Shown piece by piece: positions 5,874 through 11,401 of a stretch of DNA of 12,004 nucleotides. How positions within the stretch are numbered: the first letter of the stretch is position 1; each line of letters begins with the position of its first letter. Position numbers and translations under genes: made by a program. This DNA comes from Elusimicrobiota bacterium (GTDB taxonomy: Bacteria > Elusimicrobiota > Elusimicrobia > UBA1565 > UBA9628): positions 1 to 12,004 of the forward strand of contig JAQUNT010000024.1 of NCBI GenBank assembly GCA_028717525.1, written 5' to 3'. The notes beneath the pieces were generated by a model. The model had not been told where the DNA came from, did no database searches, and saw only the letters and a program-made list of their open reading frames with translations.

Positions 5874-6274
5874 CCATGGACCCCAAGAAGAAGATCCTCA
5901 TCATCGATGACGAAGACATGCTGCGCGAGACCGTGATCCTCGCTCTGGGTCACGCGGGCTTCGCCGCCGAGGGACTCGCGGACTCCACACGGGCTTTCGA
6001 CGCCATCAAGAAAGGCCGGCCGGACCTGGTCCTGCTCGACCTCTACATGCCCGAGGTCTCCGGCTTCGAGCTCTGCCGCCGGCTCAAGGCCGATCCCGAG
6101 ACCAAGGCCATCCCCGTGGTGATGTTCACCGGGTCCAACGAGACCGTAGACGTGATCAGCGGCATCTCGGCCGGGGCCTTCGAGTACATCACCAAGCCGA
6201 TCGACGGCGAGGCCCTCATCGCCAAGATCCAGTCTTTGCTCGGCGGGCCGCAGCCCTCCAAGGAGAAGCCCTGA
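5870..6274 (+). CDS. Single-domain response regulator (receiver only)
   Basis: A 134-residue CheY-like receiver domain with no output domain. The acidic pair is D13-D14 in ILIIDDED, the phosphoacceptor is D57 in LLDLYMP, T87 lies in VVMFTGS, and K109 lies in EYITKPID. All catalytic positions are intact, so phosphorylation by a histidine kinase is expected. No kinase is encoded in the window, so the partner is elsewhere. Stand-alone receivers act by protein-protein contacts or in phosphorelays. The ATG at 5870 overlaps the PhoH stop codon. A second ATG at 5876 is an alternative; neither has a strong ribosome binding site, which fits coupled translation. The stop shares one base with the valS start. 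Confidence 0.9.
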   Translation: MTMDPKKKILIIDDEDMLRETVILALGHAGFAAEGLADSTRAFDAIKKGRPDLVLLDLYMPEVSGFELCRRLKADPETKAIPVVMFTGSNETVDVISGISAGAFEYITKPIDGEALIAKIQSLLGGPQPSKEKP

Positions 6275-9030
6275 TGCTCGACAAGGTCTACACCTCCCGG
6301 CCGGTGGAGGAGAAGTGGAGCGCCAGTTGGCGCGCCGCCGACCTCTTCCACGGCGAGCCCCGTTCCGGGACCAAGCCCTTCGTGATGGTCATCCCGCCGC
6401 CCAACGTGACGGGCGCCTTGCACGTCGGCCACGCCCTGGACAACACCCTGCAGGACATCTTCGCCCGCTGGCAGCGCCTCCTGGGCCGGCCCGTGTGCTG
6501 GGTCCCGGGCACGGACCACGGCGGCATCGCGACGCAGAGCGTCATGGAGAAGCAGCTCAAGGCGGAGAAGCTGACCCGGCAGATGCTGGGGCGCGAGAAG
6601 TTCCTGGCCCGGATGCAGGCCTGGACCCGGCAGTGCAAGAGCACCATCCTGGGCCAGCTCGAGCGTCTGGGCTGCGCCCTGGACTGGCGGCGCGAGGCCT
6701 TCACCATGGACGCGGACCGGGCCGACGCCGTGCACGAGGCCTTCAAGGTCCTCTGGGAGAAGGGCCTGGTCTACCGCGGCGAGCGCATGGTGAACTGGTG
6801 CGTGCGCTGCGGCACCGCGCTCTCCGACATCGAGGTGGAGTTCGAGGAGCGCAAGGGCCATCTCTGGCACATCCATTATCCGGCCGCGGACGGCGGCCGC
6901 GGGCCGGTGGTGGCCACCACGCGGCCCGAGACCATGCTGGGCGATACGGCCGTGGCGGTCAACCCCAAGGACCCGCGCTACCAGGACCTGGTCGGCAAGA
7001 CCCTGCGCCTGCCCCTGGCGGGCCGCGATATCCCGGTCGTGGCCGACGAGTACGTGGACTCCGGGTTCGGCACCGGGGCGCTCAAGGTCACCCCGGCGCA
7101 CGACCCCAACGACTTCGAGATCGGCCAGCGGCACAAGCTCGCCTCGGTGGCCGTCATCTCTCCGGACGGCCACATGACCGCCGCCGCGGGCTCCGCTTAC
7201 GCGGGGCTGTCCCGCGAGGCGGCGCGCGAGAAGGTGGTCGAGGACCTCAAGGCGGCCGGGGTCTTGGAGAAGGTCGCGGACTACCCGCACAGCGTGGGAG
7301 TGTGCTACCGCTGCAACCAGCCCATAGAGCCCATGCTCTCCTGGCAGTGGTTCGTGCGCATGGAGGAGCTGGCCAAGCCCGCAGCCGTGGCGCTGGACTC
7401 GGGCCGGTTCCGGCTCTACCCCGAGTCCTGGGCCAAGCCCTACCGCGACTGGCTCTCCAACATCAGGGACTGGTGCATCTCGCGCCAGATCTGGTGGGGC
7501 CACCGCATCCCGGTGTGGTACTGCGTCCAGTGTCACGGCGAGCGCATCAGGACCGACTTCCATCAGGTCGCGGCCGCGCGCGGGGTGCTCAGCGTCGAGG
7601 CGCCCGGGTCCTGCCCGGTCTGCGGCGGCGCCGAGTTCGTCCGGGACCCGGACGTGCTGGACACCTGGTTCTCCTCGGCCCTGTGGCCCTTCTCGGTCTT
7701 CCGCTGGCCGGGGCGCACGGCCGAGCTGAAGTTCTTCTACCCGACGTCCCTGCTGGTGACGGGCTACGAGATCCTCTACCTGTGGGTGGCGCGCATGCAG
7801 ATGATGGGCCTGGCCCTCATGGGCGAGGCGCCCTTCCCGGAGTGCCTCATCCACGGCATCGTGCGCGACAAGCACGGCAAGAAGATGTCCAAGTCCCTGG
7901 GCAACGTGGTCGATCCACTGGTCATGATGGACAAGTACGGGACCGACGCCTTCCGCTTCTCCTTGGTCATCCAGGCCCACCCGGGCAAGGACATCCCCTT
8001 CGCGGAGAGCTCCATCACCGGCTCGCGCAACTTCGCCAACAAGCTGTGGAACTCCACGCGCTTCGTGCTCATGAACCTGCCCCCGGCCGGCCGCAAGGCC
8101 TACCGCGTCGCGGACCTCGACCGCGCGCGCCTGGAACTCTGCGACCGCTGGATCCTGGCCGAGTACCAGGCCACGCTGTCGCTGGTCCGCCAGAAGCTCG
8201 ACGCCTACGACCCGGCGGCCGCGGCCGACGCGCTCTACGGCTTCCTGTGGGACAAGTTCTGCGATTGGTACGTGGAGCTGGCCAAGATCCGCCTGCAGGG
8301 GCAGGGCGCCGGCCGTATGGAAGTCCGTCCGGCCGGTGCCGGCGGAACCTCCGCTACCGCCGGCGGGCCGGACCAGGAGTCCGCCCGCGCCGTGCTCGTG
8401 GAGGTGCTCAGCGGGACCCTGCGCATGCTCCATCCCTTCATGCCCTTCATCACGGAGGAGCTGCACGGGGCGCTCAAGCCGTTCAACGGCGTCAAGGCGG
8501 GCTTCATCGTGGAGGCGGGCGCCCCGGAGCTCTCCGGAGATTGGTCGGACGACGAGGCCTGCCGCGAGATGGGCACGGTGATGGAGGTGGTCGCCGCCCT
8601 GCGCTCCCTGCGCGCCCAGCTCAACGTGCCCCCCGGCCTCAGGATCGACGTGGTCAGCGCCGGGGGCTCGGCCGACGTGCGCGAGCTGCTGGCCAAGCGC
8701 GCGGGCTACCTGACGGCCCTGGCGCACCTGCGCGACATCCGGCATTCCCGGGAGGGGACGCGCCCCCCGCACAGCGCCACGGCCGTCGCCGCGGGCATGA
8801 GCTTCTACGTCCCGCTGGAGGGGGTCATCGACCTGGCCCAGGAATGCGGACGGCTGCGCAAGGAGATCGCCAAGGCCGAGGCCGACCTGTCCAAGCTCGC
8901 GGTCAAGATGGAGAACAAGGACTTCCTGGCCCGCGCCCCGCAGGCCGAGGTGGAGCTGGCGCGCCGCCAGTACGACGCGGCCCGCGGCCGGCTGGACCTG
9001 CTCGGAGAGACGCTCAGGATGCTCTCTTGA
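6274..9030 (+). CDS. valS: Valyl-tRNA synthetase carrying an in-frame repeat-derived insertion
   Basis: A 918-residue class Ia synthetase that charges tRNA-Val. Visible parts in order: PPPNVTGALHVGHAL with the HIGH-type signature HVGH (50-53); the CP1 editing domain with ATTRPETMLGDTAVAV; two Cys-x2-Cys regions (WCVRC/CYRC and YCVQC/CPVC) suggesting zinc sites; RDWCISRQIWWGHRIPVWYC; KMSKS (537-541); FCDWYVELAKIRL opening the anticodon-binding region; and a C-terminal coiled coil (about 845-918, ending LDLLGETLRMLS). AAGGAG at 6260-6265 is the ribosome binding site. Residues 680-697 (GRMEVRPAGAGGTSATAG) are encoded exactly by one copy of the 54-bp repeat also found at 10701-10811. They fall in the loop between AKIRL and ARAVLVEVL, which is short in Escherichia coli ValS. 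All catalytic motifs are intact, so the enzyme is expected to work. Confidence 0.97.
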   Translation: MLDKVYTSRPVEEKWSASWRAADLFHGEPRSGTKPFVMVIPPPNVTGALHVGHALDNTLQDIFARWQRLLGRPVCWVPGTDHGGIATQSVMEKQLKAEKLTRQMLGREKFLARMQAWTRQCKSTILGQLERLGCALDWRREAFTMDADRADAVHEAFKVLWEKGLVYRGERMVNWCVRCGTALSDIEVEFEERKGHLWHIHYPAADGGRGPVVATTRPETMLGDTAVAVNPKDPRYQDLVGKTLRLPLAGRDIPVVADEYVDSGFGTGALKVTPAHDPNDFEIGQRHKLASVAVISPDGHMTAAAGSAYAGLSREAAREKVVEDLKAAGVLEKVADYPHSVGVCYRCNQPIEPMLSWQWFVRMEELAKPAAVALDSGRFRLYPESWAKPYRDWLSNIRDWCISRQIWWGHRIPVWYCVQCHGERIRTDFHQVAAARGVLSVEAPGSCPVCGGAEFVRDPDVLDTWFSSALWPFSVFRWPGRTAELKFFYPTSLLVTGYEILYLWVARMQMMGLALMGEAPFPECLIHGIVRDKHGKKMSKSLGNVVDPLVMMDKYGTDAFRFSLVIQAHPGKDIPFAESSITGSRNFANKLWNSTRFVLMNLPPAGRKAYRVADLDRARLELCDRWILAEYQATLSLVRQKLDAYDPAAAADALYGFLWDKFCDWYVELAKIRLQGQGAGRMEVRPAGAGGTSATAGGPDQESARAVLVEVLSGTLRMLHPFMPFITEELHGALKPFNGVKAGFIVEAGAPELSGDWSDDEACREMGTVMEVVAALRSLRAQLNVPPGLRIDVVSAGGSADVRELLAKRAGYLTALAHLRDIRHSREGTRPPHSATAVAAGMSFYVPLEGVIDLAQECGRLRKEIAKAEADLSKLAVKMENKDFLARAPQAEVELARRQYDAARGRLDLLGETLRMLS
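8311..8364 (+). repeat. Copy A of a 54-bp palindromic repeat, in frame within valS
   Basis: This begins GGCCGTATGGAAGTCCGTCC and ends ACCGCCGGC. It differs from copy B (10701-10754) at three of 54 positions: 8 (T for A), 31 (G for T) and 51 (C for A). It holds two hairpins. Positions 1-24 form a GGCCG/CGGCC stem with an inner ATGG/CCGT extension; positions 28-54 form GCCGGCGG/CCGCCGGC around an 11-base loop. Positions 31 and 51 pair with each other and changed together (G-C here, T-A in B and C). The 54 bp equal 18 codons, so the valS frame is kept. The upstream GCGCC is also shared with copy B, so the true unit may be a little longer. Confidence 0.93.
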
Positions 9031-9755
9031 CCACGACGGGCCTGCTCCTGGCCGTGGCGCTCTGCGCTCCGCTGCGCGGTCAGGACTCGGCGGTCTCCAC
9101 GGCGACGGCCGCGGTGGAGGCCTCCACCGCGGCCGTGAGCGCTCCGGAGGCGCCGTCCGTCCCGGAGGCGCCGGCCATCCCCAAGAGCCGGGTCATCGTC
9201 CACAAGGAGGCCGCGGGCTGGGAGCCCTTCTCCGTGCGCCTGCGGCCGGCGGCAGGGGGGCGGAGCTCCTTCGCGGGCAAACTGCGCAAAGTCGGCGGCC
9301 GCTTCGAGGGCGGCTCCTCCCCGGCCAAGGCGGCGGCGCGCGTCTACCCGGCGGGAGAGGACCGCTGGCTGGTGGTGTGCGTCTACCCGGCCTCCTTGCG
9401 TCCCAACAGGATGCACCTGGAGGCGCGCTTCCTCGTCCAGGAGGGCTATCTGGAGGAGGTCCAGGTCGCGGCGGTGAAGATCGTAGGAGGGAGGTGGTCT
9501 CCGGACGATGATAAGGAGGACTCCTTCTCCCTCAGGGCCAAGGGCGTGGATTTCAACGAGCGCACTCCGGGCGGCGGCCAGGTCATCCTGACGGCCATCG
9601 ACCCGGGACCGGGGCGCGCCGCCAACGCGGGCGCGGTCCGCCACGCCGCCTTCGGCGGGAGGGACCTGGGCTTCGTGGATTTCGCGTGGTCGCTGACGAG
9701 CGTCATGGGGGAGAAAGCCGCGTCGGGAGCCAAGAAGCGGGCCGGCGGTCGATGA
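9027..9755 (+). CDS. Unrecognised secreted protein
   Basis: A 242-residue protein I cannot assign to a family. It starts with a TTG at 9027 overlapping the valS stop (TTGA), with AGGA 7 bases upstream; no in-frame ATG lies nearby. MTTTGLLLAVALCAPLRGQ looks like a short signal peptide; the cysteine is not in a good lipobox, so secretion is likelier than lipidation. Next comes a low-complexity linker (about residues 22-53) rich in A, S, E, P and V with the repeats TAAVEASTAAV and PEAPSVPEAPAIP. The rest (about 55-225) is a probable beta-rich domain with alternating polar and hydrophobic segments (RWLVVCVYPASLRPN, LEEVQVAAVKIVGGRWS, RTPGGGQVILTAIDPGPG). The tail is basic (GAKKRAGGR). It overlaps the next gene by 4 bp. 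The linker-coding DNA contains a 32-bp perfect palindrome. Confidence 0.75.
   Translation: MTTTGLLLAVALCAPLRGQDSAVSTATAAVEASTAAVSAPEAPSVPEAPAIPKSRVIVHKEAAGWEPFSVRLRPAAGGRSSFAGKLRKVGGRFEGGSSPAKAAARVYPAGEDRWLVVCVYPASLRPNRMHLEARFLVQEGYLEEVQVAAVKIVGGRWSPDDDKEDSFSLRAKGVDFNERTPGGGQVILTAIDPGPGRAANAGAVRHAAFGGRDLGFVDFAWSLTSVMGEKAASGAKKRAGGR
9105..9136 (+). repeat. 32-bp perfect palindrome inside a coding region
   Basis: The two 16-base arms, ACGGCCGCGGTGGAGG and its exact reverse complement, meet at 9120/9121 with no spacer. In mRNA this could fold into a stem of about 14 bp closed by a GGCC loop, starting about 78 bases after the TTG start of the unrecognised secreted protein gene. It encodes the TAAVEASTAAV part of the linker. 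The perfect symmetry exceeds what the amino-acid repeat requires. Confidence 0.9.
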
Positions 9756-10708
9756 TCCCGGACGACCTCCTGCGCGGGGTCTCGCGCTCCTTCTACCTCT
9801 CCCTGCGCGTGCTGCCCGCCGAACTGCGGCCGCAGATCGGCCTGGCCTACCTGCTGGCCCGGGCCAGCGACACGGTGGCCGACACCAAGGCGGTTCCAAG
9901 GCCGCGCCGGCTGGAGCTCCTGGGCGCCATGCGCCAGGGCGACTTCCGACCGGTCGCGGAGCTGGCCCGCGGACAGGCCCTGCCCGCGGAGCGGAGGCTC
10001 CTGGAGAGCCTCGACGCCTGCGCCGCCGAGCTGGCGGCGCTGGCGCCCGGCGACCGCGGGCTCGTCGTTTCTTTGCTCGACACCATCGTCTCCGGCCAGA
10101 TCTTCGACCTGGAGCGCTTCCCGGGCGAGAGCGAGCGGGAGCTGACGGCCCTGTCCGACGACGCGGAGCTGGACCGTTACGCCTACCTGGTGGCGGGCTG
10201 CGTGGGGGAGTTCTGGACCCGGATGTGCGCCGCGCATCTGCCGGCCTTCGCGGCCCTGGACCAGGAGGAGATGTTGCGCCTGGGGACGCGCCTGGGCAAG
10301 GGCCTGCAGCTGGTCAACATCCTCAGGGACATGGCCGGGGACCTGCGTATCGGCCGCTGCTACCTGCCCGCGTCCGAGCCGCGGCGGCTGCTCGACCCCG
10401 GGAACTTCGCCGAGGTCCGGGAGCTCTACGGGCGCTGGCTCGACGCGGCGCTGGGCCATCTGGACGCGGGCTGGGCCTACGTCCTGCGCCTGCCGCCGCG
10501 GCTCTGGCGCGTGCGCCTGGCCTGCATCTGGCCGATCTGGATCGGGCTGGGCACGATCGCCCTGCTGCGCCGGGCCAACCCTCTGGACCCGTCGCAGCGG
10601 GTCGTGGTCCCGCAGTGGCGGGTCAACGTCATGCTCGGGCAGTCCTGGCTGTGCGCGCGCAGCGACCGCCTGCTGGGGCTGGCCTACCGGCGCCTGCGCC
10701 GGCCGTAA
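9752..10708 (+). CDS. Squalene/phytoene synthase family protein
   Basis: A 318-residue head-to-head prenyl synthase. SRSFYLSLRVLPAELRPQ (11-28) leads to the first aspartate motif DTVAD (D40, D44). The second motif is LQLVNILRDMAGDLRIGRCY (185-204), with N189, D193 and D197, followed by LP. These bind the diphosphate-magnesium groups. YLVAGCVGEFWTRMC (145-159) is also family-typical. A hydrophobic stretch near 256-272 (ACIWPIWIGLGTIALL) could touch the membrane. The enzyme condenses two farnesyl or two geranylgeranyl diphosphates to squalene or phytoene; sequence reading alone does not decide which, and no desaturase or cyclase gene is nearby. The ATG at 9752 overlaps the preceding stop (ATGA). 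The TAA stop (10706-10708) lies inside repeat copy B, which also supplies part of the codons for the final residues. Confidence 0.9.
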   Translation: MIPDDLLRGVSRSFYLSLRVLPAELRPQIGLAYLLARASDTVADTKAVPRPRRLELLGAMRQGDFRPVAELARGQALPAERRLLESLDACAAELAALAPGDRGLVVSLLDTIVSGQIFDLERFPGESERELTALSDDAELDRYAYLVAGCVGEFWTRMCAAHLPAFAALDQEEMLRLGTRLGKGLQLVNILRDMAGDLRIGRCYLPASEPRRLLDPGNFAEVRELYGRWLDAALGHLDAGWAYVLRLPPRLWRVRLACIWPIWIGLGTIALLRRANPLDPSQRVVVPQWRVNVMLGQSWLCARSDRLLGLAYRRLRRP

Positions 10709-10754
10709 GGAAGTCCGTCCGGCCGGTGCCTGCGGAACCTCCGCTACCGCAGGC
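10701..10754 (+). repeat. Copy B of the 54-bp palindromic repeat, spanning the stop codon of the isoprenoid synthase gene
   Basis: This begins GGCCGTAAGGAAGTCCGTCC and ends ACCGCAGGC. Its second hairpin uses arms GCCTGCGG and CCGCAGGC, fully paired although position 31 and its partner 51 both differ from copy A. A shorter competing hairpin, GCGGA-ACC-TCCGC, lies within the same half. The TAA at element positions 6-8 terminates the synthase gene. With copy C it fills the space between converging genes, so a bidirectional terminator or mRNA-end role is possible; no U-tract follows the hairpins. Confidence 0.95.
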
Positions 10755-10757
10755 GCG

Positions 10758-10811
10758 GGCCGTAAGGAAGTCCGTCCGGCCGGTGCCTGCGGAACTTCCG
10801 CTGCCGCAGGC
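10758..10811 (+). repeat. Copy C of the 54-bp palindromic repeat, tandem to copy B
   Basis: Separated from copy B by 3 bp, giving a 57-bp period. It differs from B only at element positions 39 (C to T) and 46 (A to G), both in the loop of the long second hairpin, so the arms GCCTGCGG/CCGCAGGC stay intact. The change at 39 also extends the competing short hairpin to GCGGAA-C-TTCCGC (10789-10801). The copy ends 5 bp before the TAG stop of the convergent minus-strand gene. Confidence 0.95.
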
Positions 10812-10816
10812 GCGCC

Positions 10817-11401
10817 CTACCGGATGATCATCAGCTTGCCCTTCTTCTTGCCGCCCCCGGCCTGCTGGACGATGAAGAAATAGACCCCGCTGGCGACCGG
10901 GGAGCCCTGGTCGTTGTTGACGGGAGTCCAGGCCAGCCGGTCCGAGTTGTCCGACTTCGAGAGGGTCTTGACCAGGTGGCCGGAGAGCGTGAAGATCTTG
11001 ATGGTGACCTCCGGGGGCAGGGCCGAGAACATGATCCGGGTATGGCCTTGGGACGGGACGAAGGGCGTGGGGAAGGCGTGCGCCCGGCTGACGTCGGTCT
11101 GGGCGAGCGTCACCGCGGCCAGGACCCCGGGCCAGATCTTCAGGGACCCGCCGGTCATGGGCTGGTTGAACTTGCCCATCAGGTAGCTCAGATTGATGCC
11201 CGAGGTCGTGGTGCAGCGGTCGTCGTGGCTGGAGTCCTTCATGCAGCCCCCGCCGGCGGTGATGGCGTCTTCCGCCATGCAGAGGGTGCCGTCGGGCGAG
11301 TGGGGCAGCCCCTCCGTGCAGGTGGCCTGGCCCCAGGCCGCGCGCGGCGCGGCCGCGGCGGCGGCGAGCAAAGACGCGAGCAGGAGTTCCTTCCTGGTCA
11401 T
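10817..11401 (-). CDS. Secreted protein with C-terminal FlgD-like / type IX sorting-like domain
   Basis: A 194-residue exported protein. The signal peptide MTRKELLLASLLAAAAAAPR (1-20) is followed by AAWGQA, with cleavage near 24-26. A cysteine-bearing region follows (C28, C41, C53, C63), possibly two disulfides, then KIWPGVLAAVTLAQTDVSRA. Residues about 109-194 match the C-terminal beta-sandwich seen on many secreted proteins of Elusimicrobiota, Fibrobacterota and Bacteroidota-like lineages: FPTPFVPSQGHTRIMFSALP, VTIKIFTLSGHLVKTL, LAWTPVNNDQGSPVASGVYF and a basic KKKGKLMIIR end. That domain is FlgD Ig-like and often acts as a secretion or surface-anchoring signal; whether it does here is inference. 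No enzymatic domain precedes it. The start overlaps the upstream gene's stop by 4 bp, so they are probably one operon. Confidence 0.8.
   Translation of the reverse strand: MTRKELLLASLLAAAAAAPRAAWGQATCTEGLPHSPDGTLCMAEDAITAGGGCMKDSSHDDRCTTTSGINLSYLMGKFNQPMTGGSLKIWPGVLAAVTLAQTDVSRAHAFPTPFVPSQGHTRIMFSALPPEVTIKIFTLSGHLVKTLSKSDNSDRLAWTPVNNDQGSPVASGVYFFIVQQAGGGKKKGKLMIIR

Follow-up and report, generated by a model that had tools for sequence, protein, structure and literature searches.

The 12,004-nucleotide stretch of DNA analysed here (the window) is the entire contig C24 of an Elusimicrobiota bacterium, known from a metagenome-assembled genome (MAG) of 3.02 Mb in 562 contigs that is 79% complete. 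It holds the valyl-tRNA synthetase gene valS, a squalene/phytoene synthase gene and three copies of a short repeat, one of them inside valS (Table 1). Sequence comparisons establish that these copies belong to a family with two hairpins, empty sites in relatives, a length that preserves the frame in valS and at other sites, and members within genes that between them use four reading frames. The gain of 57 bp in valS very probably reflects the in-frame insertion of a double-hairpin element that is non-autonomous and dispersed in one Elusimicrobiota genus.

A repeat inserted in frame into valS

The original prediction, made from the letters of the window, described a 54-bp stretch within valS that is 51/54 identical to a repeat 2.3 kb downstream and that adds 18 codons (residues 680-697). 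Recomputation for 8311-8364 and 10701-10754 gave the same count, and the residues encoded by the stretch, which leaves the reading frame of valS uninterrupted, are as described. The size of the gain, however, is 57 bp, or 19 codons. The insert is drawn best at 8309-8365 and equally well at 8307-8363, because the dinucleotide CG is duplicated; taking out the former leaves QGGPDQESARA, equal in length to QDQAAQEAARA in the closest homologue. The downstream match likewise holds up, except that it is not a single repeat but a tandem pair with a 57-bp period, whose second member (10758-10811) is 49/54 identical to the stretch in valS.

Relatives carry valS without the element: the insert is missing, with both flanks intact, in 24/24 relatives compared (a set that leaves out the partial loci L130-L133). 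The named relatives of ValS are Elusimicrobia MAGs, several of them from groundwater. At the protein level, the spacing between DWYVELAK and LHPFMPF could be scored in 94 of the 120 listed homologues, including the source protein itself, and not in the other 26; it is 28 residues in 83, 21-33 in ten and 47 (19 more) in the source protein, the only one with a spacing of at least 40, the 93 others being without the insert. Net differences between the DNA sequences are 57 in 34/41 comparisons, 63 in four and 78 in three, some genomes being counted twice. Among the species compared, the valS insertion is, judging by these alignments, new to the source species. Empty sites with intact flanks, together with many copies inside and outside genes, bear out the proposal of a mobile repeat that inserted in frame; relatives that all share the insert and a genome otherwise free of copies, the picture named beforehand as speaking against it, were not what was found.

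Table 1. Coordinates of the element copies and their host or neighbouring genes in the window
Feature	Position	Strand	Remarks
valS, valyl-tRNA synthetase	6274..9030	+	Host gene, 918 aa; Anticodon_1, tRNA-synt_1, Val_tRNA-synt_C; 1gax
Element footprint in valS	8305..8367	+	Model columns 1-63: GGCGCC - hairpin 1 - GGTGCC - hairpin 2 - GGCGGG
57 bp gained by valS	8309..8365	+	Core of 55 bp (CC...GG) and a single copy of the duplicated CG
Hairpin 1 module, valS copy	8311..8334	+	Columns 7-30
Inner hexamer, valS copy	8335..8340	+	GGTGCC, able to pair with either outer hexamer
Hairpin 2 module, valS copy	8341..8361	+	Columns 37-57
Squalene/phytoene synthase open reading frame (SQS_PSY)	9686..10708	+	Start uncertain; C-terminus ends on the element
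Second element copy	10695..10757	+	TAA at 10706-10708 serves as stop codon for the squalene/phytoene synthase gene upstream
Third element copy	10752..10814	+	In tandem with the second, ahead of the convergent open reading frame 10817-11401 (-)

A family confined largely to one genus

A BLAST search of the source genome with a 61-bp query, in line with the check proposed at the outset, returned 47 matches, 46 of them at E<=2.5e-8, for a total of at least 46 in the assembly. A covariance model (R1) built from 62 copies and used with a cut-off of E<=0.01 matched 95 times in the source genome, 40 in G001, 49 in G006, 21 in G003, 7 in G004 and 5 in G044; these are upper counts, as one copy can match on both strands. 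It found 14 weaker matches in G012 and none in G002 or G005, which belong to the same genus as the source genome, or in G031, where one partial match (E 4e-4) was therefore not confirmed by the model. Hence, the genus has four carriers (G001, G003, G004 and G006) among its six other genomes. With stricter filters (E<=1e-5), 6/294 Elusimicrobiota genomes match, namely the five carriers of the genus, including the source genome, and G044. The copies in G044 probably lie on misbinned contigs, since one of them, C108, shares 80% identity with contig C80 of the source genome over 754 bp, while the ValS of G044 is 60% identical. Within fetched stretches totalling 1.31 Mb, a weight matrix identified 131 copies, against none when these were reversed; the stretches were chosen around listed matches, meaning that 131 is not a whole-genome count. 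Rfam gave no match in the window.

Beyond valS, a net length of exactly 57 bp relative to at least one relative was seen at 7/31 other comparable sites: contigs C70, C318, C75, C155 and C137 of the source genome, C124 of G004 and C180 of G006.

Several side observations concern individual members. In a biotin/lipoyl protein gene, a copy lies near the start: G003 and G006 share one position, the source genome has its copy about 15 bp further along, and G001 has none there (L017:465-1034, L261 and L276:9914-10483, from sister species); these are probably two separate insertions. G012, from another genus of the same family, contains a related form (L312, L313, L082, L090, L097, L104) with a 69-nt footprint, in which hairpin 1 is three bases longer and hairpin 2 is different, and whose net unit would be 63 bp, also a multiple of three. 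At L051:1489-1520 (G000 C94), a lone hairpin 1 sits at the centre of a palindrome, CCGCGGCC/GGCCGCGG. A tRNA-like stretch beside the copy in L023 was ruled out, as ARAGORN finds no tRNA there, nor in L254 or L262.

Two hairpins and three matching hexamers

The element is laid out as GGNNCC - hairpin 1 - GGmmCC - hairpin 2 - GGNNCC, where the conserved region begins at column 2-3 and stops at column 63. Covariation backs both hairpins (columns 7-11 with 26-30 and 31-41 with 53-63), with changes on both sides at 7/16 pairs. Pair 37-57 is mainly TA or GC, and 10-27 is mainly CG or GC. Overall, 92.5% of the hairpin cells are paired, compared with 85.9% in shuffles and 24-52% when slid. The weak pairs are 34-60, which fails in 36/61 sequences, and 31-63, which fails in 18/61. 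Two further structures were considered and set aside. A fold of columns 1-6 with 31-36 pairs 66% of cells and shows more two-sided changes when slid by -2 (33 vs 24), and a loop-loop pseudoknot of GGAAG with CTTCC was dropped on a reading of the consensus, columns 17-19 being variable and 43-48 mostly constant.

Beyond columns 5-59, targets favour GG ahead of NN and CC behind it, and a 55-bp core plus a 2-bp duplication yields the 57 bp. Hexamer statistics were drawn from 104 single copies, 27/131 with a score below 60 or in tandem being left out. Left and right outer NN are equal in 87/104 copies; shuffling gives 55.5, or 73.9 if restricted to copies of the same mm. The inner mm in turn pairs with the outer NN beyond chance, both at columns 33-61 (99/104 vs 86.8 shuffled) and at 4-33 (93/104 vs 83.3). 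In the commonest form (53/104), however, CA stands against CG, so the top strand has a single mismatch and the other strand a G-T. Among copies that share a rare NN, core identity is 0.852, versus 0.862 when shuffled, and 225/300 shuffles are at least as high. Rare NN thus do not track the ancestry of the core, so the match was seemingly made or selected anew at each insertion.

Copies inside genes

By a rough coding test, whose classifier was trained on 3375 codons of the window, 43/131 copies have one coding frame on both sides and no stop; 72 lie at gene edges and 16 are noncoding or interrupted by a stop. The 43 use frame +0 (17), -0 (11), +1 (8) and -1 (7), and none uses +2 or -2. The original prediction had held that the repeat fits at least two frames, which is exceeded by the four that host genes use. 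Its observation that at least two frames lack a stop is also correct; as evidence this is weak, however, given that about 34% of random 63-mers of the same GC content are open in at least five frames. Frame +2 contains a stop in 94/117 copies, and frame -2 in 15/117. The absence of copies from frame -2 has a P of about 2e-4 if open frames are used equally, and this avoidance may reflect the arginine-rich peptide that the frame encodes.

Host proteins were searched against Pfam with 40/43 intragenic open reading frames, cut to 400 residues on each side, several of which gave no match. Backed in this way are ValS, PheT, an M18 aminopeptidase and an isochorismatase domain in the source genome; glutamine synthetase III (GSIII), an acyltransferase domain, DegT, AcrB and L20 in G006, the last with its copy at the C-terminal end and beside a contig end; a Mur ligase in G001; and IleS in G044, on a contig of doubtful binning. 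In comparisons with solved chains, the insert shows up as a clean gap of 19-20 aa in M18 (2glj), IleRS (8c8v) and GSIII (3o6x). When IleS and ValS are aligned with one another, their inserts coincide, in an alignment helped by the similarity of the inserts. A TAA within the element forms the end of five genes, including the squalene/phytoene synthase gene of the window.

How the element may move

On the reading favoured here, the element would enter sites that resemble GGNNCC and leave a 2-bp duplication of NN, as a rule adding 57 bp, such that the host gene keeps its frame. The peptide would then be translated and stay in ValS as a tolerated surface loop, and the element would persist as a near-neutral genomic parasite, with copies in a stop-bearing frame or at damaging positions presumably being lost. 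For movement, a putative enzyme would have to be provided in trans and recognise the hairpins.

Several points weigh against this reading. At 24/31 of the other sites compared, the net length is not exactly 57: it is 58-78 at five sites, 106-108 at the tandem pair of the window, 33-51 at several and about 0 at sites with a copy in the relative as well or with flanks that give a poor alignment. These deviations arise in part because the relative carries a copy too and in part from the poor alignment of flanks. Genes are also hit less often than random positions (41/124 vs 781/1500, p 5e-5), a depletion that suggests that many intragenic insertions are harmful and lost. In addition, a second valS is possible in a MAG as fragmented and incomplete as this one, no site polymorphic within one species was seen, and translation of the peptide, activity of ValS and present-day mobility are presumed. 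Finally, the inner hexamer follows NN, which a plain 2-bp target duplication leaves unexplained. The hexamer match favours a mechanism that compares target and element by pairing or homology, and the three-way match of inner hexamer and outer NN is the least expected part of the analysis.

A possible though unlikely alternative sees the element as a tiny miniature inverted-repeat transposable element (MITE) of a DDE transposase, which would have short terminal repeats (CCKGCSGTA) and duplicate 2 bp of a palindromic GGNNCC target. Indeed, the target is roughly symmetric (GG at columns 1-2, CC at 62-63), the ends of the element agree at seven of their first nine bases, and a target site duplication is present in the form of the equal left and right NN and the net gain of 55 + 2 bp. 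Yet under plain target duplication NN should be independent of the inner hexamer, contrary to the pairing of columns 33 and 61. Moreover, no paired lone left and right ends with at most one mismatch lie within a few kb of each other in G001 or G003 (chance level with reversed patterns, 7 and 9, 4 and 3 in G001 and G003). No parent transposon was accordingly found in these two genomes; of eight stretches around lone ends, several are decayed composites or chance matches.

The match could also be a direct product of target choice by base pairing, the inner GGmmCC serving as a guide for both the target GGNNCC and the right end of the element, with the result that NN, mm and NN agree. This version of the pairing mechanism appears doubtful. 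No small repeat is known to us in which a frame-neutral length goes together with a single guide that serves both ends.

Just as doubtful is a REP doublet (REPIN/BIME, from repetitive extragenic palindromes) moved by a resident REP-associated Y1 transposase (RAYT). The two hairpin modules would fit, as would the occurrence of tandem and partial arrays, a weak resemblance of reversed hairpin 2 to hairpin 1 (alignment score 20, reached by 32/2000 shuffles) and the presence of Y1_Tnp genes in the source genome, G001, G003 and G006. However, the consensus has no GTAG or CGTC at a stem end, GTAA and CGTC sitting instead in the loop region of hairpin 1. The 20 stretches (126,783 bases) around Y1 genes, which include all ten Y1 genes of those four genomes, hold a single module, which lacks hairpin 2 and lies about 1.3 kb from a Y1 domain in G001. 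Within 400-bp flanks of the ten carrier genes, several Y1 genes turn out to be bordered by inverted repeats of their own. For the Y1 proteins of one carrier, the best match in another has 40-65% identity, compared with 84-92% for ValS relative to the source protein, and the distributions differ: G004 has copies and no Y1 match, while G002 and G005 have Y1 genes and no element. Thus, the link to a RAYT found no support in a Y1_Tnp search of 32 genomes, the comparison of 21 Y1 proteins, the inspection of flanks and the scan of the 20 stretches. Nor is there an orientation bias relative to GC skew (33/65 copies with at least 8 kb of context; the source genome was excluded for its short contigs), which also disposed of lagging-strand insertion. 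At L330:2900-4100 (G001), a Y1 transposase gene lies between long inverted repeats (GGTCAGGTCTTGACATTGGACATT), an arrangement that resembles the tyrosine transposases flanked by terminal inverted repeats in the available part of PMC3733652.

Consequences for the ValS protein

An AlphaFold2 model of the source ValS, built on 32 sequences, has a mean confidence (predicted local distance difference test, pLDDT) of 87. Among its 918 residues, pLDDT falls below 50 at 678-695 only, between helices 647-674 and 699-719 of the Anticodon_1 domain, which accords with the placement of the insert in a loop of the anticodon-binding region by the original prediction. Its statement that the catalytic motifs are intact agrees with the sequence too, where two signature motifs, which we take to be the HIGH-type motif and KMSKS, are both found. 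Going by the model, tolerance of the insert by ValS is plausible.

That the insertion was kept since it improves or regulates ValS or its mRNA is very improbable. The hairpins of the element are strong as RNA (z about -3.5) and could be read in this way; the same element, however, occurs in genes unrelated to one another as well as in intergenic DNA, on either strand and in four frames, and in ValS it forms the low-confidence segment of the model. Next to no credence can be given to an ordinary indel or an old ValS domain with no mobile repeat involved: homologue spacing does vary here (21-33 residues in 10/94 scorable proteins), but the insert is 51/54 identical to another locus, has 46 strong matches in the genome and is absent from all 24 relatives compared.

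Relation to known palindromic repeats

In-frame palindromic repeats are best known from Rickettsia. The Rickettsia palindromic elements (RPEs), invoked from the start as a precedent, are indeed the closest by behaviour: like them and the palindromic elements of Wolbachia, the element is a dispersed palindromic stem-loop repeat that enters conserved protein genes in frame and, probably, at solvent-exposed places. PheT is even a host for both, an insertion of the RPE-4/6/7 group sitting in PheT of Rickettsia according to the accessible text of PMC3767692. Unlike RPEs, which reside in Rickettsia and measure 105-146 bp (PMC2229807, in part), the element has a net length of 57 bp, is GC-rich, lives in Elusimicrobiota and follows the GGNNCC rule; it is by this description that the two are set apart.

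Intragenic REPs offer the second comparison. As far as the available portion of PMC3733652 goes, GTAG/CGTC REPs and REP dimers occur within genes of Opitutus terrae, Rickettsia conorii, Xanthomonas and others, more than half of the inserts encode 20-30 aa, and tRNA synthetase genes are among the hosts, so that such inserts have a precedent in free-living bacteria that extends to tRNA synthetase genes. GTAG REPs also frequently provide neighbouring open reading frames with a stop codon (same source), much as five genes here stop on the TAA of the element. Common to both are short hairpin units, often in dimers and within genes. By contrast, the element has no GTAG/CGTC tag at its stem end and no linked RAYT in the stretches scanned, and neither a fixed 57-bp unit nor a match of NN and inner hexamer is mentioned for REPs in the text of PMC3733652 at hand.

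MITEs with open frames (Correia/NEMIS, ERIC, RUP and YPAL) are, from what is accessible of PMC2229807, about 100-200 bp long and mostly end in 5'TA3'. They share with the element their non-autonomous nature, target duplication in several cases and in-frame fusion in some; the element differs in being shorter and in having no parent transposon found in G001 or G003. Among the matches listed for the open-access literature, there was no palindromic repeat family of this kind in Elusimicrobiota. In its behaviour, then, the element is that of RPEs and intragenic REP dimers, and the family itself is a novel variant in another phylum.

What this adds is an independent-looking family with the same behaviour among environmental bacteria, in a phylum other than that of Rickettsia. 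It uses four reading frames and has hit the genes of three different aminoacyl-tRNA synthetases (one on a contig of doubtful binning). A genus that comprises carriers, non-carriers and empty sites renders both the movement of the element and the tolerance of proteins testable, and the hexamer match provides a concrete, checkable hint on the mechanism of insertion.

The tandem pair downstream of valS

Pairs of copies within 6 kb of each other (n=12) have a mean core identity of 0.86, versus 0.853 for 2012 other pairs. Local spread was dropped as an explanation on these grounds, as near pairs are hardly more alike, and the nearness of the window copies consequently says little. The tandem pair (10695-10814) occupies the gap between the squalene/phytoene synthase gene and the convergent open reading frame, and in the two relatives compared, the end of the squalene/phytoene synthase gene consists of other sequence.

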